A stretch of DNA of 64,000 nt from Archivesica marissinica (taxonomy: Eukaryota > Mollusca > Bivalvia > Venerida > Vesicomyidae). The first letter of the stretch is position 1; each line of letters opens with the position of its first letter. Shown here piece after piece: positions 41,850 to 64,000 of this stretch. Location: positions 22,537,518 through 22,601,517 of the forward strand of contig CM026391.1 of NCBI GenBank assembly GCA_014843695.1, read 5' to 3'. The position numbers were made by a program, and so were the translations under genes. The notes beneath the pieces were generated by a model. It saw only the letters and a program-made list of their open reading frames with translations. It did no database searches and was not told where the DNA came from.

Positions 41850-42074
41850 ATTCAACAGCCATGCCATCTAAAGTGAAGGATGGTTGTATTTACCAATTCC
41901 GAAACTGTAAGATTCTATGGCAGCACAATCTGGTGGAGGAAGATTTGTGGGTACGTGAAGGCAAGATCCTAAATCCTGAGAAACTATTCTTCGATGAGCA
42001 GGCCTACGCTGATGTCCAGATTAATTGTCAGGGATGCATTATTGCGCCTGGTTATATAGACGTGCAAATCAATG
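41850..42074 (+). CDS. N-acetylglucosamine-6-phosphate deacetylase, coding exon 1
   Basis: The AMDHD2/NagA enzyme removes the acetyl group from GlcNAc-6-phosphate in the cytosol, feeding sialic acid/GlcNAc breakdown and hexosamine recycling. This exon has an acceptor (tttttccag|A at 41850), 11 nt of 5' UTR, ATG 41861 and 71 codons plus one base, ending at the donor (AATG|gtatgc). It holds the N-terminal beta-sandwich part (YQFRNCKILW, EDLWVREGKI, APGYIDVQIN). The acceptor implies an upstream non-coding exon. The first codon after splicing is Gly, as the family expects (NGG). A SINE-B starts about 40 bp into the intron. Confidence 0.93.
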
Positions 42075-42109
42075 GTATGCATTCTTGTGATGTCTCAATG
42101 TCAATCCTA

Positions 42110-42347
42110 CATAATTGCGAAACAAGTTCTAACAACTTATATTAATCACTCTCGTTGGCGCGGATGAAAGCGTAAATGTGGTCATTCGTGTGGGAGGAAA
42201 CCGGAGTACCCGGAGAAAACCCACTTGTCTGATCTGGCGACCACCGTACCATCTCACATACTTCCCGGTCCGAGGATCGAACCCGGGTTGCCTTGGTGAG
42301 AAGCTGTCCGATTAGCACAGTGGATATCGCGCTCGCTTCTCACCAAA
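42110..42347 (-). mobile_element. SINE-B with its tRNA-like head inverted
   Basis: It reads as a normal minus-strand SINE-B up to the B box and 'ttggtgagaag'. The remaining head is then on the plus strand instead (ctgtccgattagcacagtgg ... gcttctcaccaa). The switch point is the self-complementary gtgagaag/cttctcac, giving a local palindrome. Confidence 0.75.
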
Positions 42348-42419
42348 GTTTGACATTCATAATTCTTACATAACTATTGGTATTTAAAATAATATCATCA
42401 TATCCAGAGTTACCTCATT

Positions 42420-44152
42420 GCCTCCATGAGCAGACGTTACTTATTATTTGGACTACTAGTATATGGTTTGGCGTTGATTTTACCTATTATTTGGACTATA
42501 GGGGAGTGTTTAGCATAGATTTTACTTAGTATATGGACTATAGGGGAGTGTATGGTATATACATCTTATTTGGACTACTAGTATATGGAGTGTTTGGCAT
42601 AGATTTTACTTAGTATTTGGACAATAGGGAGTGTATGGTATAGACATTGCTTATAATTTGGACATTTTGTATGGTATGGCATAGACATTACTTATTAATC
42701 GGACTATATGGTGGGTATGGCATAGACATTACTTATTAATCGGACTATTGGGAGGGTATGGCATAGACATTACTTATTAATCAGACTATATGGAGGGTAT
42801 GGCATAGACATTACTTATTAATCAGACTATAGGGAGGGTATGGCATAGACATTACTTATTAATCTGACTATAGGGAGGGTATGGCATAGACATTACTTAT
42901 TAATCAGACTATATGGAGGGTATGGCATAGACATTACTTATTAATCAGCCTATTGGGAGGGTATGGCATAGACATTACTTATTTATCGGACTATATGGAG
43001 GGTATGGCATAGACATTACTTATTAATCAGACTATATGGAGGGTATGGCATAGACATTACTTATTAATCAGACTATAGGGAGGGTATGGCATAGACATTA
43101 CTTATTAATCAGACTATTGGGAGGGTATGGCATAGACATTACTTATTAATCAGACTATATGGAGGGTATGGCATAGACATTACTTATTAATCAGACTATA
43201 GGGAGGGTATGGCATAGACATTACTTATTAATCAGACTATATGGAGGGTATGGCATAGACATTACTTATTAATCAGCCTATTGGGAGGGTATGGCATAGA
43301 CATTACTTATTTATCGGACTATATGGAGGGTATGGCATAGACATTACTTATTAATCAGACTATAGGGAGGGTATAGCATAGACATTACTAATTTATCAGA
43401 CTATATGGAGGGTATGGCATAGACATTACTTATTTATCGGACTATATGGAGGGTATGGCATAGACATTACTTATTAATCAGACTATATGGAGGGTATGGC
43501 ATAGACATTACTTATTAATCGGACTATATGGAGGGTATGGCATAGACATTACTTATTAATCAGACTATATGGAGGGTATGGCATAGACATTACTTATTTA
43601 TCAGACTATATGGAGGGTATGGCATAGACAATACTTATTAATCGGACTATAGGGAGGGTATGGCATAGACATTACTTGTTAATCGGACTATAGGGAGGGT
43701 ATGGCATAGACATTACTTATTAATCAGACTATATGGAGGGTATGGCATAGACATTACTTATTAATCAGCCTATTGGGAGGGTATGGCATAGACATTACTT
43801 ATTTATCGGACTATATGGAGGGTATGGCATAGACATTACTTATTAATCAGACTATATGGAGGGTATGGCATAGACATTACTTATTAATCAGACTATAGGG
43901 AGGGTATGGCATAGACATTACTTATTAATCAGCCTATTGGGAGGGTATGGCATAGACATTACTTATTTATCGGACTATATGGAGGGTATGGCATAGACAT
44001 TACTTATTAATCAGACTATATGGAGGGTATGGCATAGACATTACTTATTAATCAGACTATAGGGAGGGTATGGCATAGACATTACTTATTAATCAGACTA
44101 TTGGGAGGGTATGGCATAGACATTACTTATTAATCAGACTATAGCGAGGGTA
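42420..44152 (+). repeat. 41-bp minisatellite in AMDHD2 intron 1, derived from the exon 2 acceptor
   Basis: About 36 regular copies (from about 42650) plus several longer, degenerate ones (42420-42650). Unit: 'ggagggtatggcatagacat' + 'tacttattaatcagactatat'. The first 24 bases match the start of AMDHD2 exon 2 (gagggtatggtatagacttt) with few changes, and 'tatatggact' matches the intron just before it. The array therefore looks like an expansion of the intron 1/exon 2 boundary. A 41-bp period shifts frame on every copy. Confidence 0.93.
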
Positions 44153-44302
44153 TAGACTTTTCTTACATTACTTCAACTGTTACAGGAGGGCTTGATATAA
44201 TTGTTACACAATACATTTGGGCTGTGTCAGCAGCATCTCATATCATGACATCACTTTTTCTATATTTACTATATATGGACTGTTTCTTTGGACTTTTTTA
44301 AG

Positions 44303-44439
44303 GAGGGTATGGTATAGACTTTACGGAGACAGAAGACATTTGTGCAGGATTACAGACAGTGGCTAAAGGTCTACTGGAACATGGTGTCACCTCCTTTTGT
44401 CCTACCATAATAACAAGCCCGAAGGAAACTTATCAGAAG
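44303..44439 (+). CDS. AMDHD2/NagA deacetylase, coding exon 2
   Basis: Acceptor (gacttttttaag|GA) and donor (CAGAAG|gtgtgt) bound 137 nt that complete the Gly codon from exon 1 and end in phase 0. The peptide begins GGYGIDFTETEDI and contains 'GVTSFCPTIITSPKETYQK', the conserved part of the TIM barrel where the strand-loop 'GVTSFCPT' lies. The 5' end of this exon is the apparent source of the minisatellite in the preceding intron. Confidence 0.92.
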
Positions 44440-44636
44440 GTGTGTGTAAAACATTACTGTTGTGTACCTGAAGTATGTGGAAAGCACATCTGTACTATTC
44501 AAATGAAGAATTTGATTAACTCTCCAATGTGGCGCTGGACTTCCATGACATATTTCCAGTGCTTTCAGTTACAAATAAGAAAGCCCATTATAGAATTGTC
44601 GTCTGCTACAATTATTCAAATTATTTATAACAGTGG

Positions 44637-44905
44637 TCCACCTCCGTGGTCGAGTGGTTACGGTCGCTGACTTGTATACCACTGTAACCTATCATCACTG
44701 ATGGTCACGGGTTCGAGCCCCGCTCAGGCCGTGTCTCATTTATATGAATAAGTTGGCAGTTTCTTACGGAGGTTGGTGCACCAAGTACTGGTTAACCGCT
44801 GGAGCCTGCCCAGGAAAGGTGTTGTTAGGTAAACTGCCCACCGGCGATATAGCCCGAAATGGTGCTGATGCATACGTAAAACCCGAAATATAACATAACA
44901 TATTT
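44637..44905 (+). mobile_element. SINE-D in AMDHD2 intron 2
   Basis: Head 'ctccgtggtcgagtggttac' and B box GGTTCGAGCC, then 'tttcttacggaggttggtgc', then a tail 'aaatggtgctgatgcatacg' + 'taaaacccgaaatataacat'. This tail reappears fused to a partial copy of exon 3 at 51491-51535. Confidence 0.82.
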
Positions 44906-45329
44906 ATAACAGTTATTTTACCCAGCATGCAAAGAGTTGATTCGATATTCACTTTGCTTAGTACTGATTTACTAGTATAGCGTTCCTCATGTATACCCGC
45001 ACTTACTTTAACTCTTTGCGTGATAACGTTGAAAATAACAGTCAAATATGTCGTATAATTTCATTAGAATTTTGTCGCAATAAAGAAAATGCATGACATA
45101 TACAATGTATTCCAGAGTTTTCGGTTATACATTGTAAATAAGAAAAACACATTTGAATTTGTCGTCTGCTACAATTATTTGAACTATTTATAGCCTTGTT
45201 TTACCCAGCATGCAAAGAGTTAATGGTTTTTCACCTAACCTAGCACCGACTTAAATCACATGTGTGGACCTAGGCAGTGTTTCAGGTGCACAAATACATT
45301 CACACATGTAATGCCACTGACTGAAGCAG
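44906..45329. other. AMDHD2 intron 2, nothing coding
   Basis: A 15-20 bp motif 'ttacccagcatgcaaagagt' and 'gaatttgtcgtctgctacaa' occurs twice (about 44585-44945 and 45155-45215), so a fragment of the intron has been duplicated. No other feature was seen. Confidence 0.5.
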
Positions 45330-45650
45330 TTTTTCACAAACCTTATAGCTTACCTGTATGTCGAATGTTATTTTTCAAAAAGCAGTAACAATGTACAAAA
45401 TTATTCACAATCTTGTACCGAATTATTTGAATGAATATTTTTCCATTAAGACATTACAATACAGTTACTTCAGAGATTTGCTTCAAATATTGATCTCTAT
45501 ATTCCAAGACCTAGATGTGAAATTTACAAGAAATCTTTAGAATACTCTGGTCCAAAGATATGGAATTGTCTACCATGGGAAATTAAAACGTCCAGATCTT
45601 TAAATATGTTCAAGACAAAATGTAAATTATGGATACAACATCTTTTTAAT
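45330..45650 (+). mobile_element. LINE fragment: 3' end of a reverse-transcriptase ORF
   Basis: Open segments read 'KAVTMYKIIHNLVPNYLNEYF' (split by a frameshift near 45470), then 'YSGPKIWNCLPWEIK' and 'FKTKCKLWIQH'. These are the typical last 100 residues of Jockey/CR1-like LINE ORF2 proteins (pattern ysGp.iWN.LP...FK.k). It ends just before the 75-bp satellite. The name of the clade is inference. Confidence 0.7.
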
Positions 45651-45689
45651 TATAGACACTGGAAAGTTATATATATAATGATTGCCATT

Positions 45690-48600
45690 CAATATGCTTA
45701 TGTCGTTGTGTATTTGGATAACATTATACATCATGTATATTGCATGGCGTAACTGTGTGCTTTGGTTATAATTATTGTGTATGTGCATTAATGCTATAGC
45801 GTTATACATGTATATTGCATGGCGTAACTGTGTGCTTTGGTTATAATTATTGTGTATGTGCATTAATGCTATAGCATTATACATGTATATTGCATGGCGT
45901 AACTGTGTGCTTTGGTTATAATTATTGTGTATGTGCATTAATGCTATAGTGTTATACATGTATATTGCATGGCGTAACTGTGTACTTCGGTTATAATGGT
46001 TGTGTATGTGCATTAATGCTATAGGGTTATACATGTATATTGCATGGCGTAACTGTGTGCTTCGGTTATAATTATTGTGTATGTGCATTAATGCTATAGT
46101 GTTATACATGTATATTGCATGGCGTAACTGTGTGCTTTGGTTATAATTATTGTGTATGTGCATTAATGCTATAGTGTTATACATGTATATTGCATGGCGT
46201 AACTGTGTACTTTGGTTATAATTATTGTGTATGTGCATTAATGCTATAGGGTTATACATGTATATTGCATGGCGTAGCTGTGTGCTTTGGTTATAATTAT
46301 TGTGTATGTGCATTAATGCTATAGTGTTATACATGTATATTGCATGGCGTAACTGTGTGCTTTGGTTATAATTATTGTGTATGTGCATTAATGCTATAGT
46401 GTTATACATGTATATTGCATGGCGTAACTGTGTGCTTTGGTTATAATTATTGTATATGTGCATTAATGCTATAGTGTTATACATGTATATTGCATGGCGT
46501 AACTGTGTGCTTTGGTTATAATTATTGTGTATGTGCATTAATGCTATAGTGTTATACATGTATATTGCATGGCGTAACTGTGTGCTTTGGTTATAATTAT
46601 TGTCTATGTGCATTAATGCTATAGTGTTATACATGTATATTGCATGGCGTAACTGTGTACTTTGGTTATAATTATTGTGTATGTGCATTAATGCTATAGT
46701 GTTATACATGTATATTGCATGGCGTAACTGTGTGCTTTGGTTATAATTATTGTGTAAGTGCATTAATGCTATAGTGTTATACATGTATATTGCATGGCGT
46801 AACTGTGTGCTTTGGTTATAATTATTGTGTACGTGCATTAATGCTATAGTGTTATACATGTATATTGCATGGCGTAACTGTGTGCTTTGGTTATAATTAT
46901 TGTGTATGTGCATTAATGCTATAGTGTTATACATGTATATTGCATGGCGTAACTGTGTGCTTTGGTTATAATTATTGTGTATGTGCATTAATGCTATAGT
47001 GTTATACATGTATATTGCATGGCGTAACTGTGTACTTTGGTTATAATTATTGTGTATGTGCATTAATGCTATAGTGTTATACATGTATATTGCATGGCGT
47101 AACTGTGTACTTTGGTTATAATTATTGTGTATGTGCATTAATGCTATAGTGTTGTTATACATGTATATTGCATGGCGTAACTGTGTGCTTTGGTTATAAT
47201 TATTGTGTATGTGCATTAATGCTATAGTGTTATACATGTATATTGCATGGCGTAACTGTGTACTTTGGTTATAATTATTGTGTATGTGCATTAATGCTAT
47301 AGTGTTATACATGTATATTGCATGGCGTAACTGTGTACTTTGGTTATAATTATTGTGTATGTGCATTAATGCTATAGTGTTATACATGTATATTGCATGG
47401 CGTAACTGTGTACTTTGGTTATAATTATTGTGTATGTGCATTAATGCTATAGTGTTATACATGTATATTGCATGGCGTAACTGTGTACTTTGGTTATAAT
47501 TATTGTGTATGTGCATTAATGCTATAGTGTTATACATGTATATTGCATGGCGTAACTGTGTACTTTGGTTATAATTATTGTGTATGTGCATTAATGCTAT
47601 AGTGTTATACATGTATATTGCATGGCGTAACTGTGTACTTTGGTTATAATTATTGTGTATGTGCATTAATGCTATAGTGTTATACATGTATATTGCATGG
47701 CGTAACTGTGTACTTTGGTTATAATTATTGTGTATGTGCATTAATGCTATAGTGTTATACATGTATATTGCATGGCGTAACTGTGTACTTTGGTTATAAT
47801 TATTGTGTATGTGCATTAATGCTATAGTGTTATACATGTATATTGCATGGCGTAACTGTGTACTTTGGTTATAATTATTGTGTATGTGCATTAATGCTAT
47901 AGTGTTATACATGTATATTGCATGGCGTAACTGTGTACTTTGGTTATAATTATTGTGTATGTGCATTAATGCTATAGTGTTATACATGTATATTGCATGG
48001 CGTAACTGTGTACTTTGGTTATAATTATTGTGTATGTGCATTAATGCTATAGTGTTATACATGTATATTGCATGGCGTAACTGTGTACTTTGGTTATAAT
48101 TATTGTGTATGTGCATTAATGCTATAGTGTTATACATGTATATTGCATGGCGTAACTGTGTACTTTGGTTATAATTATTGTGTATGTGCATTAATGCTAT
48201 AGTGTTATACATGTATATTGCATGGCGTAACTGTGTACTTCGGTTATAATTATTGTGTATGTGCATTAATGCTATAGTGTTATACATGTATATTGCATGG
48301 CGTAACTGTGTACTTTGGTTATAATTATTGTGTATGTGCATTAATGCTATAGTGTTATACATGTATATTGCATGGCGTAACTGTGTACTTTGGTTATAAT
48401 TATTGTGTATGTGCATTAATGCTATAGTGTTATACATGTATATTGCATGGCGTAACTGTGTACTTTGGTTATAATTATTGTGTATGTGCATTAATGCTAT
48501 AGTGTTATACATGTATATTGCATGGCGTAACTGTGTACTTTGGTTATAATTATTGTGTATGTGCATTAATGCTATAGTGTTATACATGTATATTGCATGG

Positions 48601-49168
48601 CGTAACTGTGTGCTTTGGTTATAATTATTGTGTATGTGCATTAATGCTATAGTGTTATACATGTATATTGCATGGCGTAACTGTGTGCTTTGGTTATAAT
48701 TATTGTGTATGTGCATTAATGCTATAGTGTTATACATGTATATTGCATGGCGTAACTGTGTGCTTTGGTTATAATTATTGTGTATGTGCATTAATGCTAT
48801 AGTGTTATACATGTATATTGCATGGCGTAACTGTGTGCTTTGGTTATAATTATTGTGTATGTGCATTAATGCTATAGTGTTATACATGTATATTGCATGG
48901 CGTAACTGTGTGCTTTGGTTATAATTATTGTGTAAGTGCATTAATGCTATAGTGTTATACATGTATATTGCATGGCGTAACTGTGTGCTTTGGTTATAAT
49001 TATTGTGTACGTGCATTAATGCTATAGTGTTATACATGTATATTGCATGGCGTAACTGTGTGCTTTGGTTATAATTATTGTGTATGTGCATTAATGCTAT
49101 AGTGTTATACATGTATATTGCATGGCGTAACTGTGTGCTTTGGTTATAATTATTGTGTATGTGCATTA
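45690..49168 (+). repeat. 75-bp satellite in AMDHD2 intron 2, first block
   Basis: About 46 copies of a 75-bp unit (gttatacatgtatattgcat + ggcgtaactgtgtgctttgg + ttataattattgtgtatgtg + cattaatgctatagt), mostly more than 95% alike by eye; one unit has a 3-bp insertion at 47152. 75 is a multiple of three, so the minus strand reads open for about 1,180 codons; this is not a gene. Confidence 0.97.
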
Positions 49169-49428
49169 GGCCGTAATAAAATATTTCCTAGATTTTCATC
49201 CCCGCCCGCCCCCGTTTTTAGGGCCCGCCCCGATTTTTTTTATTACTATTTGAAAGAAAAAAAAAAAGAAAAAAAATCTTGTCAAGTTGAATCTTGTCAA
49301 AACACCATTTTATCAGCATAAATATCGATATCCTGAAAATATAAAATAAAAAATAAAAGTTCACCCCCCGCCCCCATCCATTTTCAAAAAAATTTGGATG
49401 AAAATCTAGGATTTATTTTATTATGGCC
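49169..49428. mobile_element. MITE (PIF/Harbinger-like) inserted in the 75-bp satellite
   Basis: A 260-bp element with 33-bp terminal inverted repeats (GGCC(g/a)TAATAAAATA..., three mismatches), flanked by a TTA duplication (49166-49168 and 49429-49431). The satellite unit 'gcattaatgct' is split exactly at TTA, so the target-site duplication is unambiguous. The interior has C-rich (ccgcccgcccccg) and A-rich tracts. A 3-bp TTA duplication and GGCC ends suit PIF/Harbinger. Confidence 0.85.
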
Positions 49429-51316
49429 TTAATGCTATAGTGTTATACATGTATATTGCATGGCGTAACTGTGTACTTTGGTTATAATTATTGTGTATGT
49501 GCATTAATGCTATAGTGTTATACATGTATATTGCATGGCGTAACTGTGTGCTTTGGTTATAATTATTGTGTATGTGCATTAATGCTATAGTGTTATACAT
49601 GTATATTGCATGGCGTAACTGTGTGCTTTGGTTATAATTATTGTGTATGTGCATTAATGCTATAGTGTTATACATGTATATTGCATGGCGTAACTGTGTG
49701 CTTTGGTTATAATTATTGTGTATGTGCATTAATGCTATAGTGTTATACATGTATATTGCATGGCGTAACTGTGTACTTTGGTTATAATTGTTGTGTATGT
49801 GCATTAATGCTATAGTGTTATACATGTATATTGCATGGCGTAACTGTGTGCTTTGGTTATAATTATTGTGTATGTGCATTAATGCTATAGTGTTATACAT
49901 GTATATTGCATGGCGTAACTGTGTGCTTTGGTTATAATTATTGTGTATGTGCATTAATGCTATAGTGTTATACATGTATATTGCATGGCGTAACTGTGTG
50001 CTTTGGTTATAATTATTGTGTATGTGCATTAATGCTATAGTGTTATACATGTATATTGCATGGCGTAACTGTGTACTTTGGTTATAATTATTGTGTATGT
50101 GCATTAATGCTATAGTGTTATACATGTATATTGCATGGCGTAACTGTGTACTTTGGTTATAATTATTGTGTATGTGCATTAATGCTATAGTGTTATACAT
50201 GTATATTGCATGGCGTAACTGTGTACTTTGGTTATAATTATTGTGTATGTGCATTAATGCTATAGTGTTATACATGTATATTGCATGGCGTAACTGTGTA
50301 CTTTGGTTATAATTATTGTGTATGTGCATTAATGCTATAGTGTTATACATGTATATTGCATGGCGTAACTGTGTGCTTTGGTTATAATTATTGTGTATGT
50401 GCATTAATGCTATAGTGTTATACATGTATATTGCATGGCGTAACTGTGTGCTTTGGTTATAATTGTTGTGTATGTGCATTAATGCTATAGTGTTATACAT
50501 GTATATTGCATGGCGTAACTGTGTGCTTTGGTTATAATTATTGTGTATGTGCATTAATGCTATAGTGTTATACATGTATATTGCATGGCGTAACTGTGTA
50601 CTTCGGTTATAATGGTTGTGTATGTGCATTAATGCTATAGTGTTATACATGTATATTGCATGGCGTAACTGTGTACTTTGGTTATAATTATTGTGTATGT
50701 GCATTAATGCTATAGTGTTATACATGTATATTGCATGGCGTAACTGTGTACTTCGGTTATAATGGTTGTGTATGTGCATTAATGCTATAGTGTTATACAT
50801 GTATATTGCATGGCGTAACTGTGTACTTTGGTTATAATTATTGTGCATGTGTATTAATGCCATAGGGTTATACATGTATATTGCATGGCGTAACTGTGTA
50901 CTTTGGTTATAATTATTGTGTATGTGCATTAATGCTATAGTGTTATACATGTATATTGCATGGCGTAACTGTGTACTTTGGTTATAATTATTGTGTATGT
51001 GCATTAATGCTATAGTGTTATACATGTATATTGCATGGCGTAACTGTGTACTTCGGTTATAATGGTTGTGTATGTGCATTAATGCTATAGTGTTATACAT
51101 GTATATTGCATGGCGTAACTGTGTACTTTGGTTATAATTATTGTGCATGTGTATTAATGCCATAGGGTTATACATGTATATTGCATGGCGTAACTGTGTA
51201 CTTTGGTTATAATTATTGTGTATGTGCATTAATGCTATAGTGTTATACATGTATATTGCATGGCGTAACTGTGTACTTTGGTTATAATTATTGTATATGT
51301 GCATTAATGCTATAGT
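49429..51316 (+). repeat. 75-bp satellite in AMDHD2 intron 2, second block
   Basis: About 25 further copies of the same 75-bp unit. A 300-bp segment (four units including the variants 'cttcggttataatggttgtg' and 'gtgcatgtgtattaatgcca') is repeated at about 50730-51030 and 51030-51330, indicating a recent four-unit duplication. Confidence 0.97.
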
Positions 51317-51416
51317 GTTAAAGAAATTTAAGAGGGCCCTAAGGAAGATTAGTTCAGAACTAATTAGGTCACCATCTATAAATAAAGAAATCTATTTATC
51401 TATATTAAACTTAAAT

Positions 51417-51538
51417 CATGCCACAAAAGATAATGACATATTGCAATATTTCAGATCATGCCAAAAGTAAGGACATCTGAAGGAAACAAAAATGGTGCTG
51501 ATGCAGGCGTAAAACCCGAAATATAACATAACATATAA
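51417..51538 (+). pseudogene. Partial duplicate of AMDHD2 exon 3 fused to a SINE-D tail
   Basis: Bases 51417-51500 repeat 51539-51622 with one or two mismatches, including the intron end, acceptor (atatttcag) and the first 46 nt of exon 3. At 51491-51500 (aatggtgctg) the copy switches into the SINE-D tail (atgcaggcgtaaaacccgaa...). The duplicate lacks the end of the exon and its proper donor, so it should be skipped or produce a broken transcript if spliced. Confidence 0.85.
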
Positions 51539-51576
51539 CATGCCACAAAAGATAATGACATATTGAAATATTTCAG

Positions 51577-51631
51577 ATCATGCCAAAAGTAAGGACATCT
51601 GAAGGAAACAAAAATGGTGCTGGAGTTCTTG
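51577..51631 (+). CDS. AMDHD2/NagA deacetylase, coding exon 3
   Basis: A 55-nt exon with acceptor (gaaatatttcag|A) and consensus donor (CTTG|gtaagt) encoding 'IMPKVRTSEGNKNGAGVLG', the linker just before the metal-binding strand. Phase 0 start and phase 1 end fit exons 2 and 4. A partial duplicate lies 122 bp upstream. Confidence 0.92.
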
Positions 51632-51971
51632 GTAAGTACAGATTGACAATGGAATCAGCAATATGGCCGCCGACATGGGCGAACTTGTATGCAATATACG
51701 TAACCCGGCGCGATATACCCTGAACTGTGCTGAAGTGCCGTTAAACCAAATACTCACTCACCGACATGGGTGAACTTGTATGCAATATACTTAACCCGGC
51801 GCGATATACCCTGATCTGTGCTGAAGTGCCGTTGGAAATACATGTGATAGATGCAAATATGGGGCTGGAATTTGGAGGTGTGTGAGGGAATAAAAAATGG
51901 TATCAAAATACTGGGTACATAAACACGTGTAAGAAGAATCAAACCTGGGTCCAGAATATGTGGGGGAGGCA

Positions 51972-52638
51972 ACTAATGGTGGGCCGATCATAGATTATAA
52001 TCAAAAATTGATCCGAGACCCTCGTAATCGGCTATATTCGATCACACTTTCTCATAATTGAATACCCGTTTACCAGTATTTTATTTTTTGTTCGCCTGAT
52101 TTCGTTCCTTTGGAGGAAAATAGTCTACTTCTGGAATGTCAAAAATGGACTCCGACGTGAAATATAAGATTGGTTGAAAACTTAAGCACTGTAGTCCTCG
52201 CAGTTGTTAAGATTAAATCAAATATTTTAAAAAAGCTGCATTGTTAGGGTTTTTTTAAACATGAGATTATTCAGATAATGAAAATGTACGCCCAATTTAA
52301 CACTTACTTACTCCTGGGAAACAGACTTCAATAAGATACCATTAGTGGCAGTAGTACTCTTACATATATATAGTCATATACATCTACAACGATTACTAGT
52401 CGATTATAATCAACATATAATTGGTTTCGGTTAACCGATTACAACCGATAATCGGTTATGATTTTGAAACTGATTTTTAGTTTAATCATATTTTATTGCT
52501 CGATTCGTTTTACATATACATGTGCATAAAAAACATGACACATTAAATAAAGGCAAATGGGGCGGGCCAAAAGTTCTAGCAACATTAGTTACGGCCCTTC
52601 CCGAAGTTACGGCCCTTTGAAACCGATTGCCCATCATT
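51972..52638. mobile_element. Possible DNA-transposon remnant in AMDHD2 intron 3
   Basis: The left end 'taatggtgggccgatcatag' and right end 'accgattgcccatcattatg' are imperfect inverted repeats, with internal 'gattataatc' and 'ccgataatcggttat' palindromes. About 52475-52600 is a copy of the dispersed 'aatcatattttattg' repeat nested inside. The class is uncertain. Confidence 0.4.
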
Positions 52639-52699
52639 ATGAGCAACTCTGGGGCAAGAATTCAGCATAGTGAAAACATGTGATGAAAGCAAAACTTGG

Positions 52700-52860: not shown

Positions 52861-52940
52861 TTGATGCATTTAAATCAATATTGCGATTCTCTAGCTGTTA
52901 CAGAACATTGTTTTTATTTTATAACACCATATTAATTCAG

Positions 52941-53150
52941 GTCTACATTTAGAGGGACCATTCATTAATGAGGCAAAGAAGGGAGCTCATAATTCAAAAT
53001 ACATCAAGTCATTTCCAAATGGGTTCAGCGATGTCAGTGATCACTATGGGGACTTTGAGCATGTTGCTATGGTAACAATCGCGCCAGAACTAGAAAGGTC
53101 AGGAGAGGTCATTAAAGAACTTTGCAAAAGAGGAATAAGAGTGTCCTTAG
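52941..53150 (+). CDS. AMDHD2/NagA deacetylase, coding exon 4 (metal ligand Glu)
   Basis: A 210-nt exon with acceptor (attaattcag|GT) and donor (TTAG|gtaaat). It encodes 'LHLEGPFINEAKKGAH', whose Glu (residue 140 of the spliced reading) is the equivalent of the NagA metal-binding Glu, then 'DHYGDFEHVAMVTIAPEL' and 'GIRVSL'. The last base begins the Gly of the GHS motif continued in exon 5. Intact and in phase. Confidence 0.94.
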
Positions 53151-53358
53151 GTAAATAATGCGTTTTATATTTAGTACATACATTGGTAACCTGGGTAACT
53201 CTATGATATTTTAGCCTTTTATTATGCGACAAACGGCCGTATATAAAACAGATTGTTTTATGTCAATGAGAGACATCAGTCAGTTACTGCCCCTGAATAT
53301 TCTCTAAAAGAATATAGGTTATCTTCAGTGGTTTCCTCTGTTTTTATCGTTGTTTCTT

Positions 53359-53602: not shown

Positions 53603-53664
53603 ACACAACATACTAATAATTTGAAGCCACTTTCTCATCTTATAATTGAGGCAATGTGGTTTTA

Positions 53665-53790
53665 AGGACCTCATTCATAATGGAATGCATTGCCATGAGG
53701 GAGAAAAAAGAGTGGTTTTAAGGATGTTGCTTAGCGACACTACCGCCAAGGTTATTGTGAGGCTCAACATCTCGATTACGAGGTCATTTC
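53665..53790. mobile_element. SINE-C fragment
   Basis: It resembles 32712-32890: 'acctcattcataatggaatg', 'cattgccatgagggag', 'aacatctcgattacgaggtc'. Confidence 0.5.
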
Positions 53791-53929
53791 CATTTCAGCA
53801 AGGATCACAAGATTGGTAAGTATTTCAATAAAATAATTTGCTATATTTGGTATAGATATTGGTAACCCCCTTATATTATGATAAAGGGTACATCAGAGAT
53901 GAAACCACATTGCAGATTAGTCAACCAGG

Positions 53930-55228
53930 ATGTATTTGTTGTAAATTACAGAATATCAAACCTGGTTGCCTGGAGATATATGACCTTGTATGGACTGTAT
54001 GTGTTGTAAATTACAGAATATCAAAACTGGTTGCCGGGAGATATATGACCTTGTATGGACTGTATCTGATGTAAATCACAGAATATCAGACCTGGTTACT
54101 GGGAGACATATTACATTGTCTTAACTGTATTTCTTTTAGATCACAGTATGTTGCCCTGGTTACCATCATATATATGATATTATATGGACTGTATTTGTTG
54201 TAGGTCACAGTATATTGCCCTGGTTACCATCATATATATGATATTGTATGGACTGTATTTGTTGTAGGTCACAGTATGTTGCCCTGGTTACCATCATATA
54301 TATGATATTGTATGGACTGTATTTGTTGTTGATCACAGTATGTTGCCCTGGTTACCATCATATATATGATATTGTATGAACTGTATTTGTTGTTGGTCAC
54401 AGTATATTGCCCTGGTTACCATCATATATATGATATTGTATGGACTGTATTTGTTGTAGGTCACAGTATGTTACCCTGGTTACCATCATATATATGCTAT
54501 TGTATGGACTGTATTTGTTGTAGGTCACAGTATGTTGCCTTGGTTACCATCATATATATGATATTGTATGGACTGTATTTGTTGTTGATCACAGTATGTT
54601 GCCCTGGTTACCATCATATATATGATATTGTATGGAATGTATTTGTTGTAGGTCACAGTATGTTGCCCTGGTTACCATCATATATATGATATTATATGGA
54701 CTGTGTCGGTTGTTGGTCACAGTATGTTGCCCTGGTTACCATCATATATATGATATTATATGGACTGTGTCGGTTGTTGGTCACAGTATGTTGCCCTGGT
54801 TACCATCATATATATGCTATTGTATGGACTGTATTTGTTGTAGGTCACTGTATGTTGCCCTGGTTACCATCATATATATGATATTGTATGAACTGTATTT
54901 GTTGTAGGTCACAGTATATTGCCCTGGTTACCATCATATATATGATATTATATGGACTGTATTTGTTGTAGGTCACAGTATGTTGCCCTGGTTACCATCA
55001 TATATATGATATTGTATGGACTGTATTTGTTGTAGGTCACAGTATGTCAGACCTGGTTACCATCATATATGTGATATTGTATGAACTGTATTTGTTGTAG
55101 GTCACAGTATATTGCCCTGGTTACCATCATATATATGATATTGTATGAACTGTATTTGTTGTAGGTTACAGTATGTTGCCCTGGTTACCATCATATATAT
55201 GATATTGTATGGACTATATTTGTTGTAG
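53930..55228 (+). repeat. 64-bp minisatellite in AMDHD2 intron 4, derived from the exon 5 acceptor
   Basis: About 20 copies of a 64-bp unit: 'gtcacagtatgttgccctgg' + 'ttaccatcatatatatgata' + 'ttgtatggactgtatttgtt' + 'gtag'. The unit contains the intron 4 acceptor (tgttgtag|) and about 26 nt of exon 5; the real exon follows directly at 55229 as if it were the last unit. About eleven units keep an intact TAG|GTCACAG-like site. The oldest, left-most units (53930-54130) keep more exon-like sequence (cagacctggttactgggaga). Confidence 0.95.
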
Positions 55229-55317
55229 GTCACAGTATGTCAGACCTGGTTACCGGGGAAACAGCTATAAACAGCGGAGCTTGTATGATCACACATCTGT
55301 TCAATGCCATGGTGTCA
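55229..55317 (+). CDS. AMDHD2/NagA deacetylase, coding exon 5 (metal ligand His residues)
   Basis: An 89-nt exon from acceptor (atatttgttgtag|GT) to donor (GTGTCA|gtaggt). It encodes GHSMSDLVTGETAINSGA followed by 'THLFNAMVS', giving the two metal-binding histidines (about residues 207 and 228). The chosen donor joins to exon 6 as 'NAMVSYHHRDP', the same length as the family pattern. The first 26 nt are also the repeat unit of the upstream array, so this exon must be recognised against many decoy acceptors. Confidence 0.94.
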
Positions 55318-57171
55318 GTAGGTACTCGCTTTCTCCTTCTCTATTTGGATGAGGGGCCTTCGTGGCCGTGTGGTTACAGTCGCTTACTTCAATTCACTTG
55401 CACCTCACCGCTGTATGTTAGCCTCCCACTGGTGTTTGTCAAATAATTTCAAGTATGGAAGCTGTCCAGCTTACTTGGGATAAGTCGGTGGTTCTACCGG
55501 GGGCCAATTAGTGCCTGAAATACTGCTCAGGGGCACCCAGGGTCTTCCTCCACCAATAATTGCAGAAAAGTCGCCATACGACCCAAGTAACAAACAAAAC
55601 TATCAGGATGATTTCGTGTATCGTCATCTGGGCCTTTTTACAGTAACAAAATATGTCATAAGAAAATTATAGACATTTATTCACTAATTGCAACTAATTA
55701 GTCACTAATCATCAGACTTGCAAAACAGCCCTACAAAGTGAAAACTTAATTTTAAAGCCCCACAACTTGATGCCTTTCCTTATAATGTTACGCATATTGA
55801 GATATTTCAGGATTACTCCTCTAATGTTTCCATTTCAAAGAAATGTTTTATGTTAGTAAATTACCTCCCTTTATCCATTGTTGTTAACTTACTGTTAGTA
55901 ATTTGCAACCCATCATTAATTACCCCCCTTTATGCATGATTGTGAAATTACTGTTATAAATTACCTCCCTTTATGCATGATGTTGGCAAATGACCACCAT
56001 TTATGCATTACTGTGACATTTCTGTTAGTAAATTACCTCCTTTTATCTATTATCTTTCGTGAAATTGCTGTTAGTAATTTACCTCCCTTTGTCCATTATT
56101 TACCTCCCTTTGTCCATTATTTTCTGTTGGTTTACTAGAGTTCTTTCTGGCATAAATGTGTGTGACTTAAAGCGTCAATATATATGATATATTTTGGTAA
56201 AGAGTATCAGATATAATTTCCAATCATTTGAAAAATCCAAATATTCACAAAGAAACGAAAACAATCAAATAAATATAGCACTGTCGTATACACTAATTGT
56301 TTATCAACAAACGTTTGTAATCAATGCTTATTGTGCATGCGTGGCGCAACAATGTTGGCTGTTCCAACAGCTGTCTTAGATGTTTGTTCTGATTGTCGAT
56401 AGATCCCGATTAGTTACGAATGTACGCAGGGCGTGGCTATGATCCGTTGGATTGATCAATCTATATTCCTTCTCACCAATGCAACCCGGGTTTGATTCTC
56501 AGACCGGGAAGTATGTGAGGTTGTACGGTGGTTGCCAGATCGGACAGGTGGGTTTTCTCTGGGTACTCCGGTTTCCTCCCACACGAATGACGACATTAAT
56601 TTTACACTTTCATCCGCGCCAGCAAACTTATTCAGGAATGTCGTACTTTCAGTGGGTTATTTGCAAGAAACTGTTTTCTGACTGAAAATAATTATTCAAA
56701 TTATATCATGTTAAAATAGCATTGTTACGTGTACGTAAATTTTCGGATTTTATAATATATTTATTCCCTAATTATGATACGGTGTTGCTTTAGCAGGGAT
56801 CAGTTTAGAGGACGATGTGGGCGAAATTGTCGCCCTAGGGACCCTGACTTCGCCCTCTGGGGGCCCCACTTCTCCCTATAAAAAAAATATTTAAAAAAAA
56901 TATTTTTTGGTTTTTACGATTTTCAAACAAAATTTTGTCTAGTAAGATACACTGGCCCTTTATAAAGTACTCCTTTTATTCAAATGTATTTAATGGTTGT
57001 ACTGTGCATTTTAACCCTATTTTGCAGAAGTATATTAAAGAACACCATTTAAGGAAGCGATCACGCGCTTTCTCACTTCTCCCAAATATTCTGACCTAAA
57101 ATGAACCCTGTTTAGTGATGTTGGTTTTCATGTAACAAGTACATGTGCCCATATATGGCGATCACTTACTA
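55318..57171. other. AMDHD2 intron 5, first part
   Basis: About 55355-55590 is a SINE-like repeat (ttcgtggccgtgtggttaca; 'gtcggtggttctaccggggg'). About 55860-56125 carries irregular copies of 'ttacctccctttatccatta'. About 56810-56890 has a short repeat of 'ctagggaccctgacttcgcc' type. No exon is expected here. Confidence 0.5.
56462..56640 (+). mobile_element. SINE-B, head-truncated
   Basis: It starts at 'ccttctcaccaatgcaaccc' with B box GGGTTTGATTC, keeps the body (ggacaggtgggttttctctg; gggtactccggtttcctccc) and ends in 'catccgcgccagcaa'. Confidence 0.8.
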
Positions 57172-57283
57172 TGTTAATACGCTGGACTCGTAATCCAGGG
57201 GTCGTCAGTTCGATTCCCCCGCTATAACATACTAAAATGACTGTCATTGTCTTACAGGTTGAGACTTTAACACAAGGTCATGT

Positions 57284-59125
57284 GTCGGTGCGTTACAGTG
57301 TCAGTGCATTACAGTGTCGGTGCAATATAGTGTCGGTGCAATACAGTGTCAGTGCAATACAGTGTCGGTGCATTACAGTGTCAGTGTGTTACAGTGTCAG
57401 TACGTTACAGTGTCGGTGCAATATAGTGTCGGTGCAATACAGTGTCGGTGCTTTACAGTGTCAGTGTGTTACAGTGTCAGTACGTTACAGTGTCGGTGCA
57501 ATATAGTGTCGGTGCAATACAGTGTCGGTGCTTTACAGTGTCGGTGCAATATAGTGTCGGTGCAATACAGTGTCGGTGCTTTACAGTGTCAGTGTGTTAC
57601 AGTGTCAGTACGTTACAGTGTCGGTGCAATATAGTGTCGGTGCGTTACAGTGTCGGTGCAATATAGTGTCGGTGCAATACAGTGTCAGTGCGTTACAGTG
57701 TCAGTGCTTTACAGTGTCGGTGCGTTACAGTGTCGGTGCAATATAGTGTCGGTGCAATACAGTGTCGGTGCGTTACAGTGTCGGTGCGTTACAGTGGCAG
57801 TGCATTAGAGTGTTAGTGCATTACAGTGTTAGTACGTTACAGTGTCTGCGCTTTACAGTGTCAGTGCATTACAGTGTCTGCGCTTTACAGTGTCAGTGCA
57901 TTACAGTGTCGGTGCAATATAGTGTCGGTGCAATACAGTGTCGGTGCGTTACAGTGTCAGTACGTTACAGTGTCTGTGCTTTACAGTGTCGGTGCTTTAC
58001 AGTGTCAGTGCGTTACGGTGTCGGTGCTTTACAGTGTCGGTGCGTTACAGTGTCAGTGCATTACAGTGTCAGTGCGTTACAGTGTCAGTGCGTTACAGTG
58101 TCAGTGCATTACAGTGTCAGTACGTTACAGTGTCGGTGCTTTACAGTGTCGGTGCTTTACAGTGTCGGTGCGATACAGTGTCAGTACGTTACAGTGTCAG
58201 TACGTTACAGTACGTTACAGTGTCGGTGCGTTACAGTGTCAGTACGTTACAGTGTCGGTGCGTTACAGTGTCGGTGCGTTACAGTGTCGGTGCGTTACAG
58301 TGTCAGTGCATTACAGTGTCAGTGCGTTACAGTGTCAGTGCGTTACAGTGTCAGTGCGTTACAGTGTCAGTACGTTACAGTGTCAGTACGTTACAGTGTC
58401 AGTACGTTACAGTGTCAGTACGTTACAGTGTCGGTACGTTACAGTGTCGGTGCGTTACAGTGTCAGTACGTTACAGTGTCGGTGCGTTACAGTGTCAGTG
58501 CATTACAGTGTCAGTGCGTTACAGTGTCAGTGCATTACAGTGTCAGTACGTTACAGTGTCGGTGCTTTACAGTGTCGGTGTGTTACAGTGTCAGTACGTT
58601 ACAGTGTCGGTGCGTTACAGTGTCAGTACGTTACAGTGTCGGTGCGTTACAGTGTCGGTGCATTACAGTGTCAGTGCATTACAGTGTCGGTGCATTACAG
58701 TGTCGGTGCGTTGCAGTGTCAGTGCGTTACAGTGTCAGTACGTTACAGTGTCGGTGCTTTACAGTGTCGGTGCTTTACAGTGTTGGTGCGTTACAGTGTC
58801 AGTACGTTACAGTGTCGGTGCATTACAGTGTCGGTACGTTACAGTGTCGGTGCATTACAGTGTCGGTGCAATACAGTGTCGGTGCATTACAGTGTCGGTG
58901 CATTACAGTGTCGGTGCATTACAGTGTCGGTGCATTGCAGTGTCAGTGCGTTACAGTGTCAGTATGTTACAGTGTCGGTGCGTTACAGTGTCAGTACGTT
59001 ACAGTGTCGGTGCGTTACAGTGTCAGTGCATTACAGTGTCAGTGCATTACAGTGTCAGTGCGTTGCAGTGTCAGTGCGTTACAGTGTCGGTGCGTTACAG
59101 TGTCAGTGCGTTACAGTGTCAGTGC
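57284..59125 (+). repeat. 16-bp minisatellite grown inside a SINE
   Basis: About 114 copies of 'gtgtcagtgcgttaca' with variants (g/a at position 6, tgc/tac, gtta/atta/ctta/aata). The unit corresponds to the SINE-A sequence 'gtgtcggtgctttaca', so the array arose by tandem multiplication of that spot. Long ORFs in three frames are by-products: 48 nt (three units) is a 16-residue period. Confidence 0.95.
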
Positions 59126-59175
59126 GTGCATGTAAAAACCAGAGGAGCCTCTGGAACAGGCTCTGTCTGTATTAC

Positions 59176-59371
59176 AGTGTTTGCCCCAAAGTCTTGGGAC
59201 ACATTTAAATAATTATTAGTGACCCGAATCTTATGTACCATACCGTACGTAATAAATTACCCGATAAATTATTGTGTCCCATTTCTTTGGAACATGAAAA
59301 ATAATTACTATTATTACACAAAATGATAGTGTCCCACTTATTAGGTCCCAAAACTTAGGGTAAATATGACA
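59176..59371. mobile_element. Tc1/mariner-like MITE nested in the SINE
   Basis: Left end 'tacagtgtttgccccaaag' + 'tcttgggaca' and right end 'tgtcccacttattaggtccc' + 'aaaacttagggtaaat' are imperfect inverted repeats. The left TACAGTG start fits a TA-inserting Tc1/mariner-type element. It interrupts the SINE between 'ctgtctgtat' and 'attgcactctcctcc'. Confidence 0.55.
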
Positions 59372-59502
59372 TTGCACTCTCCTCCAAAAACATAAAATGG
59401 CAAATATCTTGAGGAGGCGTTGCTCATCGACAACCGGTAGCGACGATAAATAAATGGAAAGTATACATACAAATGATTGTAGTTATGCTAATTGTATTGC
59501 AG

Positions 59503-59647
59503 TACCATCACAGAGATCCGCACCTGATTGGTGTGTTAACAAGCAGCCATATTAAGCAGGAGCGTGCGCTGTATTACGGTCTGATCGCTGACGGTATACA
59601 TACACATCCTTCCGCTCTCAGGCTAGCACATAGAGTACACCCAAAAG
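59503..59647 (+). CDS. AMDHD2/NagA deacetylase, coding exon 6
   Basis: A 145-nt exon from acceptor (taattgtattgcag|TA) to donor (AAAAG|gtaatt). It encodes 'YHHRDPHLIGVLTSS', 'YYGLIADGIHTHPSALRLAH' and 'RVHPKG'. The His of DGIHTHP (about residue 268) matches the substrate-binding His of NagA. It ends one base into Gly, completed by exon 7. Its last 34 nt plus the donor are the unit of the following 3.6-kb array. Confidence 0.94.
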
Positions 59648-62600
59648 GTAATTAATTGTTTGCCCTCAGGCTAGCACATAGAGTACACCCAAAAGGTAAT
59701 TAAATGTTTGCTCTCAGGCTGGCAAATAGAGTACACCTAAAAGGTAATTAATTGTTTGCTCTCAGGCTAGCACATAGAGTACACCCAAAAGGTAATTAAT
59801 TGTTTGCCCTCAGGCTAGCACATAGAGTACACCCAAAAGGTAATTAAATGTTTGCTCTCAGGCTGGCAAATAGAGTACACCTAAAAGGTAATTAATTGTT
59901 TGCTCTCAGGCTAGCACATAGAGTACACCCAAAAGGTAATTAATTGTTTGCTCTCAGGCTAGCACATAGAGTACACCTAAAAGGTAATTAATTGTTTGCT
60001 CTCAGGCTAGCACATAGAGTACACCTAAAAGGTAATTAATTGTTTGCTCTCAGGCTAGCACATAGAGTACACCCAAAAGGTAATTAATTGTTTGCTCTCA
60101 GGCTAGCACATAGACTACACCCAAAAGGTAATTAAATGTTTGCTGTCAGGCTAGCACATAGAGTACACCCAAAAGGTAATTAATTGTTTGCTGTCAGGCT
60201 AGCACATAGAGTACACCCAAAAGGTAATTAATTGTTTGCTCTCGGGCAAGCACATAGAGTACACCCAAAAGGTAATTAATTGTTTGCTGTCAGGCTAGCA
60301 CATAGAGTACACCCAAAAGGTAATTAATTGTTTGCCCTCAGGGTAGCACATAGAGTACACCCAAAAGGTAATTAATTGTTTGCTGTCAGGCTAGCACATA
60401 GAGTACACCCAAAAGGTAATTAATTGTTTGCCCTCAGGGTAGCACATAGAGTACACACAAAAGGTAATTAATTGTTTGCTGTCAGGGTAGCACATAGAGT
60501 ACACACAAAAGGTAATTAATTGTTTGCTCTCAGGCTGGCACATAGAGTACACCCAAAAGGTAATTAATTGTTTGCTCTCAGGCTGGCACATAGAGTACAC
60601 CCAAAAGGTAATTAATTGTTTGCTGTCAGGCTAGCACATAGAGTACACCCAAACGGTAATTAATTGTTTGCTCTCAGAGTAGCACATAGAGTACACCCAA
60701 AAGGTAATTAATTGTTTGCCCTCAGATTAGCACATAGACTACACCCAAAAGGTAATTAATTGTTTGCTCTCAGACTAGCACATAGAGTACACCCAAAAGG
60801 TAATTAATTGTTTGCCCTCAGACTAGCACATAGACTACACCCAAAAGGTAATTAATTGTTTGTTCTCGGGCTAGCACATAGAGTACACCCAAAAGGTAAT
60901 TAATTGTTTGCTCTCGGGCTGGCACATAGAGTACACCCAAGAGGTAATTAATTGTTTGCTCTCAGACTAGCACATAGAGTACACCCAAAAGGTAATTAAT
61001 TGTTTGCCCTCAGGCTAGCACATAGAGTACACCCAAAAGGTAATTAATTGTTTGCCCTCAGGCTAGCACATAGAGTACACCCAAAAGGTAATTAATTGTT
61101 TGCCCTCAGGCTAGCACATAGAGTACACCCAAAAGGTAATTAATTGTTTGCCCTCAGGCTATCACATAGAGTACATCCAAAAGGTAATTAATTGTTTGCC
61201 CTCAGGCTATCACATAGAGTACATCCAAAAGGTAATTAATTGTTTGCTCTCAGGCTATCACATAGAGTACACCCAAAAGGTAATTAATTGTTTGCTCTCA
61301 GGGTAGCACATAGAGTACACCCAAAAGGTAATTAATTGTTTGCTCTCAGGCTAGCACATAGAGTACACCCAAAAGGTAATTAATTGTTTGCTCTCAGGGT
61401 AGCACATAGACTACACCCAAAAGGTAATTAATTGTTTGCTCTCAGGGTAGCACATAGAGTACACCCAAAAGGTAATTAAATGTTTGCTGTCAGGGTAGCA
61501 TAGAGTACACCCAAAAGGTAATTAATTGTTTGCTGTCAGGGTAGCATAGAGTACATCCAAAAGGTAATTAATTGTTTGCTGTCAGGGTAGCATAGAGTAC
61601 ATCCAAAAGGTAATTAATTGTTTGCTGTCAGGGTAGCATAGAGTACATCCAAAAGGTAATTAATTGTTTGCCCTCAGGCTAGCGCATAGAGTACACCTAA
61701 AAGGTAATTAATTGTTTGCTCTCAGGCTAGCACATAGAGTACACCCAAAAGGTAATTAATTGTTTGCTCTCAGGCTAGCACATAGAGTACACCCAAAAGG
61801 TAATTAATTGTTTGCTCTCAGGCTAGCACATAGAGTACACCCAAAAGGTAATTAATTGTTTGCCCTCAGAGTAGCGCATAGAGTACACCCAAAAGGTAAT
61901 TAATTGTTTGCTGTCAGGGTAGCATAGAGTACACCCAAAAGGTAATTAATTGTTTGCCCTCAGTCTAGCACATAGAGTACACCCAAAAGGTAATTAATTG
62001 TTTGCCCTCAGAGTAGCGCATAGAGTACACCCAAAAGGTAATTAATTGTTTGCCCTCAGGCTAGCACATAGAGTACACCCAAAAGGTAATTAATTGTTTG
62101 TCCTCAGGCTAGCACATAGAGTACACCCAAAAGGTAATTAATTGTTTGCCCTCAGGCTAGCACATAGAGTACACCCAAAAGGTAATTAATTGTTTGCTGT
62201 CAGGCTAGCACATAGAGTACATCCAAAAGGTAATTAATTGTTTGCCCTCAGGCTAGCACATAGAGTACACCCAAAAGGTAATTAATTGTTTGCTCTCAGG
62301 CTAGCACATAGAGTACACCCAAAAGGTAATTAATTGTTTGCTCTCAGGCTAGCACATAGAGTACACCCAAAAGCTAATTAAATGTTTGCTCTCAGACTAG
62401 CGCATAGAGTACACCCAAAAGGTAATTAATTGTTTGCCCTCAGGCTAGCACATAGAGTACACCCAAAAGATAATTAAATGTTTGCTCTCAGACTAGCACA
62501 TAGAGTACACCCAAAAGGTAATTAAATGTTTGCTCTCAGACTAGCACATAGAGTACACCCAAAAGCTAATTAAATGTTTGCTCTCAGACTAGCACATAGA

Positions 62601-63246
62601 GTACACCCAAAAGGTAATTAATTGTTTGCTCTCAGGCTAGCACATAGAGTACACCCAAAAGGTAATTAATTGTTTGCTCTCAGGCTAGCACATAGAGTAC
62701 ACCCAAAAGGTAATTAATTGTTTGCTCTCAGGCTAGCACATAGACTACACCCAAAAGGTAATTAATTGTTTGCTGTCAGGGTAGCATAGAGTACACCCAA
62801 AAGGTAATTAATTGTTTGCTGTCAGGGTAGCATAGAGTACACCCAAAAGGTAATTAATTGTTTGCTCTCAGGCTAGCACATAGAGTACACCCAAAAGGTA
62901 ATTAATTGTTTGCTGTCAGGGTAGCATAGAGTACACCCAAAAGGTAATTAATTGTTTGCTGTCAGGCTAGCACATAGAGTACACCTAAAAGGTAATTAAT
63001 TGTTTGCTCTCAGGCTAGCACATAGAGTACACCCAAAAGGTAATTAATTGTTTGCTCTCAGGCTGGCACATAGAGTACACCCAAAAGGTAATTAATTGTT
63101 TGCTCTCAGAGTAGCACATAGAGTACACCCAAAAGGTAATTAATTGTTTGCTCTCAGAGTAGCACATAGAGTACACCCAAAAGGTAATTAATTGTTTGCC
63201 CTCAGGCTGGCACATAGAGTACACCCAAAAGGTAATTAATTGTTTG
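59614..63246 (+). repeat. 48-bp minisatellite in AMDHD2 intron 6, derived from the exon 6 donor
   Basis: About 75 copies of a 48-bp unit: 'gctctcaggctagcacatag' + 'agtacacccaaaaggtaatt' + 'aattgttt'. The first unit is the real end of exon 6; each later unit carries the last 34 nt of the exon and a donor-like AAAAG|gtaatt. Variants include 'gggtagcatagag' (2-nt deletion), 'caggctggca' and 'cccaaaagct'. Reading through the first unit past the true donor meets TAA within two codons. Confidence 0.97.
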
Positions 63247-63321
63247 CATGGTTTTAACTTAAGAAATGTTTAAGATTAAATTAAACAACATTTTGTGCAT
63301 TACGAGTGCTAAGCAAGTCAT

Positions 63322-63790
63322 TTTAAGTTTAAACTTAAGGAACACAAAGGAGACTTATAAGGAATAAAAGGGAGAAGTTTAAGGAACACAAGGGCGACTT
63401 TTAAGGAATACAAGGGAGAAGTTTAAGGAACACAAGGGAGAAGTTTAATGAACACAAGGGAGACTTTTAAGGAATAAAAGGGAGAAGTTTAAGGAACACA
63501 ATGGAGACTTTTAATGAACACAAGGGAGACTTTTAAGGAATACAAGGGGGAAGTTTAAGGAACACAAGGGAGACGTTTAAGGAATACAAGGGAGAAGTAT
63601 AAGGAACACAGGGAGACGTTTAAGGAATACAAGGGAGAAGTTTAATGACTACAAGGGAGATGATTAAGGAACACAATTTAAAAGAAGACGTGAGAAGTTC
63701 AAGGAATACATGGGAGTAGTATAAGGAACCAAAGGGGGAAGTTTAAGGTACACAATGGGGGAAGTTCAAGGAGCACAGGGGAGGAGTTTG
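63322..63790 (+). repeat. 22-bp purine-rich minisatellite
   Basis: About 20 imperfect copies of 'aaggaacacaagggagaagt' + 'tt', with alternation of 'ggaacaca' and 'ggaataca'. Strongly A/G-biased strand in intron 6 of AMDHD2. Confidence 0.9.
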
Positions 63791-63936
63791 CTAGCTGAGC
63801 CAAGTACTATCTGTATATTTTATGTGGTAAATCTTTTCCATGAGCCCAAAATAAGGTGGTGTTGCATCCCAAGGAGGATCATTTCACATACATCACCCCA
63901 GAAGCTTTATTCCTGAATACTGTACATCTGTTGTAG

Positions 63937-64000
63937 GCTTGGTACTTATAACTGATGCTATATCAGCAATGGGGTTACCAACGGGGGAACATCATCTAGG
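63937..64000 (+). CDS. AMDHD2/NagA deacetylase, coding exon 7 (partial, runs off the window)
   Basis: Acceptor (acatctgttgtag|GC) and an open frame to the window end encoding 'LVLITDAISAMGLPTGEHH'. The Asp of ITDAIS (about residue 290) is the catalytic Asp equivalent of NagA. The window thus covers about 304 of the roughly 400-410 residues expected; the remaining exons lie beyond base 64000. Confidence 0.93.

Follow-up and report, generated by a model that had tools for sequence, protein, structure and literature searches.

We analyzed a 64,000-nucleotide stretch of the genome of the vesicomyid clam Archivesica marissinica (contig CM026391.1, positions 22,537,518 to 22,601,517 of the forward strand; hereafter the window, from whose first base coordinates are counted). 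We focused on AMDHD2, the gene for N-acetylglucosamine-6-phosphate deacetylase, three introns of which hold tandem arrays built from the exon-intron boundaries of the gene itself.

AMDHD2 lies at the 3′ end of the window

The gene at 41861-64000 is AMDHD2 as judged from its predicted product, with nine coding exons, exons 1-7 being within the window. A 232-amino-acid stretch of the joined-exon translation matched human AMDHD2 (PDB 7nut, E 8.3e-85), and tblastn with Ruditapes AMDHD2 matched eight of the nine coding exons, placing the final two 3-5 kb past the window end. Exon 3 was missed in that search because, at 55 bp, it is too short to match alone; its support is the joined translation. 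The encoded protein is colinear with its Ruditapes counterpart, and the closest named proteins are those of Mercenaria (81%) and Ruditapes (80%). All seven matches listed for the protein against the 1.54-Gb genome fall at this locus.

41861..42074 (+), exon 1, ending CAAATCAATG/gt; sequence and tblastn
44303..44439 (+), exon 2; 44299-44324 (4 intron and 22 exon bases), identical at 23/26, is where the intron 1 unit finds its source
51577..51631 (+), exon 3, functional copy; joined translation
52941..53150 (+), exon 4; tblastn
55229..55317 (+), exon 5; 55229-55254 lies within the intron 4 array
59503..59647 (+), exon 6; 59614-59647 is the exon portion of the first repeat copy
63937..64000 (+), exon 7, first part, running past the window; tblastn

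Three introns repeat one of their own splice junctions

Tandem Repeats Finder (TRF) called a 41-bp unit in intron 1, a 64-bp unit in intron 4 and a 48-bp unit in intron 6; for the last, the coordinates below are the TRF limits themselves.

42420..44165 (+), intron 1 array, 41-bp unit, 38.3 copies (TRF 42582-44153), with diverged copies 5′ of these; includes the acceptor region of exon 2
53925..55254 (+), intron 4 array, 64-bp unit, 19.9 copies (TRF 53976-55254) plus 5′ copies; carries the exon 5 acceptor region
59614..63247 (+), intron 6 array, 48-bp unit (34 exon and 14 intron nt), 76 copies; beyond the functional donor, AAGGTAATT recurs as 70 decoys

The arrays of introns 4 and 6 overlap the exons that they copy. 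The intron 4 array includes the first 26 bases of exon 5 and retains TTGTTGTAGG at 11 places upstream of that exon; similarity to exon 5 runs ∼42 nt deep in the 5′-most copies (with gaps of 1-5 bp), compared with ∼26 nt in the homogenised unit. The intron 6 array starts 34 nt within exon 6, so that its first copy is the exon 6 end, the donor and 14 intron nt, and the functional donor, AAG/GTAATT, recurs in 70 further exact copies downstream in the intron. All 21 genome matches listed for this repeat DNA fall in the intron 6 array. For intron 1, we compared the unit with 1858 segments of 60 bp (both strands of 30000-64000, arrays removed). The top match was the exon 2 acceptor, with a score of 37 versus 26 at the next independent place and with 23 of 26 bases identical. 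AG/GAGGG was present at only one place in intron 1, and most copies there have no acceptor AG at the homologous position.

A first-pass annotation, made from the sequence letters alone, had assigned the three arrays to these same junctions and given the same unit lengths; the TRF calls, the intron 1 match and the array-exon overlaps in introns 4 and 6 bear it out. Its further claim that each array started at a splice junction did not hold: the junction lies within the unit, as in the 34 + 14 nt division of intron 6, or the array begins some bp into the intron.

By their sequence anatomy, the AMDHD2 arrays fit the description of "mirages". The repeats are tandem and minisatellite-sized (41, 64 and 48 bp; 38, 20 and 76 copies), and the unit joins exon to adjoining intron of the same gene, as seen from array-exon overlap in introns 4 and 6 and from the best match in intron 1. 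Mirages are on record from amphioxus genes for Adh3, globin and troponin C, and imperfect duplications of splice sites from PGBD5 (PMC3087553, PMC3902484).

Decoy splice sites are predicted to truncate the protein

Use of any of the 70 intron 6 decoy donors, or of any of the 11 intron 4 decoy acceptors tested, was computed to give an in-frame stop. Since all 81 would truncate the protein, the arrays can do no harm only as long as the outer site is chosen dependably. For amphioxus mirages, reverse transcription PCR results reported in PMC3087553 suggest just this, with the outer site used and normal mRNA splicing undisturbed. The intron 6 array is in effect a natural splice-choice experiment: the first of 71 identical donors is required for protein, because the remaining 70 lead to a stop codon.

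The first-pass annotation had also raised selection for decoy splice sites. Selection that retains the copies as decoys or splicing regulators would fit the donor half of the intron 6 unit having fewer variants than the exon half (5 in 19 positions versus 18 in 29, counted by eye; Fisher P 0.065), and a C. elegans intronic minisatellite has been linked to multiple alternative splicing (PMC4039745). Nevertheless, we find this explanation hardly credible, given that the acceptor AG is intact at a single place in intron 1 and absent from five rows of the intron 4 array, and that every tested decoy yields a stop.

A fourth case at exon 3 and five arrays of other origin

The exon 3 acceptor (37 intron nt) together with 46 nt of exon 3 is present in two copies, identical at 82 of 83 bases, which the first-pass annotation had missed.

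51418..51500 (+), additional copy of the exon 3 acceptor and 46 nt of exon 3; 82/83 identical to 51540-51622
51501..51539 (+), 39-bp 3′ tail resembling a short interspersed nuclear element (SINE), separating the two exon 3 copies and joined via the 11-bp shared sequence AAATGGTGCTG; other tail copy at 44857-44903

The tail, which we take to be SINE-like, has 11 bp in common with exon 3 at the joint (one breakpoint), and a 25-base piece of it has one other copy within the window. From its sequence, the duplication looks like either a young two-copy seed from template switching or a truncated insertion with an unusually long, 83-bp target-site duplication.

Three further arrays within the window showed no junction match by TRF and unit comparison.

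45732..51320 (+), intron 2 array, 75-bp unit, no exon-edge match
57282..59127 (+), intron 5 array, 16-bp unit, no more like the exon 5 donor than expected by chance
63335..63777 (+), second intron 6 array, 22-bp unit, no exon-edge match

We considered the intron 5 array as a copy of the exon 5 donor and rejected this, as the shared GTGTCAGTA stretch does not exceed shuffles. Counting two more arrays past the window, three of eight AMDHD2 arrays are junction-derived, versus 0.3-0.4 expected with random seeds; the corresponding P of 0.002-0.006 is post hoc, because AMDHD2 was noticed for this very feature.

Junction-spanning arrays recur in other genes

We observed six further junction-spanning arrays in myosin and kinesin genes of the same genome, with exon portions of ∼15-86 nt. 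Three come from myosin loci that we had selected because of long frames or clustered exons: a 48-bp unit at the L028 acceptor (C7), a 110-bp unit at the L030 donor (C4) and an 84-bp unit at the L034 donor (C2). Two span donors in myosin loci picked purely by Pfam hit (L045 and L053; 35 bp on C9 and 56 bp on C3). The sixth, at a kinesin acceptor on C6 (L065), repeats a 113-bp unit six times and was seen as six tandem hits of the P-loop exon. Long stop-free frames at myosin hits were tried as a signal of mirages: L028 and L034 held one, whereas L029 had a long frame and no array, and the signal is therefore unreliable.

Arrays gather within 35 bp of the sampled splice edges

We then measured array positions around 74 splice edges of 38 exons at 35 loci, chosen by Pfam hit (myosin head, kinesin). 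Matches available numbered 74 for myosin and 125 for kinesin, and the sample took 33 myosin and the first 5 kinesin. L035-L054 follow the myosin rank order, minus near-identical tandem paralogues on C5, the C4:23273144 row just past L030 and rows within L028-L034. L055-L064 are 10 of 20 lower-ranked regions, the first ten on the list, chosen before any sequence was viewed. L051 lies on a small contig and encodes the same peptide as the L031 exon. The L036 acceptor and the L066 donor (splice site not clear), L065 (tandem Pfam hits) and L028-L034 (frame length or exon clustering) were left out. An array required at least 2.5 copies and a period of at least 9. As background, we used 16 arbitrary 10-kb stretches, placed at round-number coordinates rather than drawn at random, four of which contain some N. 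Arrays with at least 5 copies of their unit took up 34,117 of the 160,000 bases in these stretches (21%) and 22,219 of the 64,000 bases in the window.

An array started at most 35 bp from 15 of the 74 edges (8 of 37 acceptors and 7 of 37 donors), compared with 8 starts in the next 265 bp (P 1.5e-8). Per base, the hazard of 0.0066 close to the junction fell to 0.00055 deeper in the intron and compares with 0.0003 for the arbitrary stretches, an excess of 12-fold over the same introns and of 22-fold over the background. Cuts at 20 bp and 50 bp gave P 4.4e-7 and P 1.3e-6, respectively; across five TRF thresholds, the near/far ratio lay between 10.6 and 18.7, and bootstrapping over loci gave 5.6-27.6. 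In this sample, then, splice-junction neighbourhoods are preferred array sites. The first-pass annotation had suggested such a preference and a comparison of arrays with exon edges; run in part, on 74 edges of two families, that comparison found the excess and supports the preference.

Chance alone would require that, in a minisatellite-rich genome, some arrays cover junctions and that the gene was picked where this is visible. The 21% array content and the post hoc probability for AMDHD2 leave room for this, but we regard it as very improbable, because at the rate of the arbitrary stretches 0.67 near starts would be expected in the Pfam-picked sample, which had 15 (Poisson P 1.1e-15), besides the excess over the same introns.

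Three of the 15 near arrays extend into the exon (by 41, 16 and 4 bp) and 12 start 2-32 bp within the intron. The intron-side starts, with no detectable exon sequence in the unit, were at L044, L046, L049, L050, L053 (acceptor side) and L055, and further at L056 (donor side), L058, L059, L067, L068 and L070. We asked whether such hugging arrays could be decayed mirages and set this aside: only two of the 15 units (L045 and L053) match their own junction above all other junctions. The broader pattern is therefore junction-hugging, and in this sample the exon-copying arrays are a minority of a wider class lying flush against exons. Given even seeding, the 3:12 split between exon and intron would suggest that decoy-making seeds survive less often.

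Proposed origin of the arrays

We consider it probable that exon-boundary minisatellites, or mirages, are seeded by short tandem duplications at or near junctions and are concentrated there in this genome. The proposal builds on the observed anatomy of the arrays, on its recurrence in other genes and on how arrays are concentrated in the sample. A seed would be a short tandem duplication that covers the junction or lies within ∼35 bp of it. The array would then expand on the intron side through slippage or unequal exchange, homogenising its copies, while the outermost copy persists as the real exon edge because coding sequence and splice site are under purifying selection. Inner copies would drop into the intron and presumably be tolerated while the spliceosome picks the outer site. 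Births, or their survival, would be concentrated at splice junctions, at donors and acceptors alike. Template switching at microhomologies or slippage may account for the birth step itself, possibly with help from transcription-linked fork stalling close to splice sites; chromatin at exon edges is another candidate for the junction preference.

More tentatively, and at somewhat less than even odds in our estimate, junctions may be mutational birth sites proper, with short duplications arising no more than some tens of bases from donors and acceptors, and over tenfold more often than in the intronic background; mirages in phyla as distant as those of amphioxus and clams would then be the conspicuous part of a general process tied to transcription or chromatin.

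Several points weigh against the seeding proposal. Five of the eight AMDHD2 arrays match no exon edge (intron 2, intron 5 and the 22-mer of intron 6, with introns 7 and 8 past the window). An early intron 1 copy scores below the unit consensus against the exon (33 versus 37), and edge copies are therefore not always nearest to the source. Two other places in the genome match the intron 4 unit weakly (G000:C19:40385866-40386060 and G000:C5:108160350-108160544; 71% over ∼195 bp, E 2.4e-6). Among the near arrays, 13 of 15 include 0-4 bp of exon, and their units match their own junction no better than other junctions. The sample is small and covers two gene families; its edges were set by eye, and not blind, because array bases were visible as lower case in the printed sequence, and the 35-bp cut was chosen after the distances had been seen.

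Arrays might instead be born anywhere in introns, with neutral deletion moving them to the exon until splice-signal selection halts the process. The acceptor gaps of 0-32 bp do resemble the room required by splice signals, and so array-rich a genome (34,117/160,000 bases) supplies the material. However, intermediate distances were rare: after 15 starts at 0-32 bp came only eight, at 56, 71, 104, 110, 127, 238, 280 and 288 bp. In addition, the intron 4 and intron 6 arrays are flush at one end, with the other end ∼775 and 690 bp from the neighbouring exon, and such a filter leaves the exon sequence within units unexplained. We therefore judge it possible but unlikely.

A splicing-linked or RNA-templated process that cuts or copies exactly at the splice site, such as spliceosome-linked nicking or reverse copying of splicing intermediates, would agree with arrays gathering at donors as well as acceptors. 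We hold it to be doubtful: unit and array edges lie off the junction (the intron 6 unit divides 34/14 nt, the spanning arrays of other genes include ∼15-86 nt of exon, and 12 of 15 near arrays leave gaps of 2-32 bp), and exact cutting is disfavoured because boundaries scatter tens of bases to either side. Moreover, units hold intron and exon together, so spliced RNA cannot be the template, an argument that does not reach unspliced RNA.

Relation to known systems

Ordinary intronic variable-number tandem repeats, or minisatellites, share unit lengths, copy numbers and variant patterns of slippage or unequal exchange with the arrays described here. The AMDHD2 units differ in being copied from an exon-intron boundary, and array positions in the sample are strongly non-random relative to splice sites.

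The first-pass annotation knew of no described general mechanism. The phenomenon itself has been published, as mirages in amphioxus (PMC3087553, PMC3902484), but the amphioxus globin paper does call the mechanism unclear. In these reports, amphioxus mirages also have units of part exon and part intron at donors or acceptors, carry many AG/GT decoys and show concerted evolution within a cluster that excludes edge copies, to which we liken the AMDHD2 arrays; length and somatic instability are reported as well. The present host is a bivalve mollusc rather than a cephalochordate, with three arrays and a two-copy case in one gene. Copy numbers reach 76 in AMDHD2, compared with the 6 and 3 units given for two amphioxus BflGb6 haplotypes, and the clam arrays seemingly belong to a wider tendency of arrays to lie flush against exons. 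In tandem genomic duplication, a mode of intron gain through AGGT-bearing exon segments (review PMC3443670), a short duplication at an exon edge likewise supplies duplicated splice signals. In contrast, AMDHD2 has no evident new intron; existing introns were enlarged and the copies are intronic.

Among the titles and abstract openings listed, with most subscription journals outside the search, we found no report of exon-boundary minisatellites in a mollusc or bivalve, a weak negative. The novelty lies in the phylum, in the copy numbers, in several instances within a single gene and in having measured, at 74 edges of two gene families, how arrays gather at junctions. The results extend exon-boundary minisatellites from amphioxus to a mollusc and suggest that these are part of a wider pattern, one that can be measured, in which arrays lie at splice junctions. 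An old unexplained curiosity thereby becomes open to testing wherever a clam genome is assembled to chromosome level. Were the bias mutational, it would provide a route by which introns grow and by which decoy splice sites, and possibly new introns, arise.

Other features of the window

As a source of independent tests, we looked for other genes in the window, and six-frame translations of 11900-17382 and 24176-42001 gave no Pfam hit at E 0.01; the scan is weak, since AMDHD2 exon 1, part of which falls in the scanned stretch, escaped it too. A transposon-like element at 2627-11864 holds a type B DNA polymerase fragment (PF03175), an A32-like packaging ATPase (PF04665) and more, unassigned frames on both strands; we presume that it resembles Polinton/Maverick. 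Within this region, shortly behind the ATPase-like frames, a 10-bp array of TTACTCAGCA runs for 82 copies at 3957-4767. Four large arrays follow in succession over 7 kb at 17381-24175 (units of 39, 46, 20/4 and 37 bp), the 39- and 46-bp units of which may be related because a GATAT..GTTAATGATTG stretch is common to both. Finally, a tRNA-Arg-like sequence at 31569-31641 (ARAGORN, Rfam) is possibly a SINE head.

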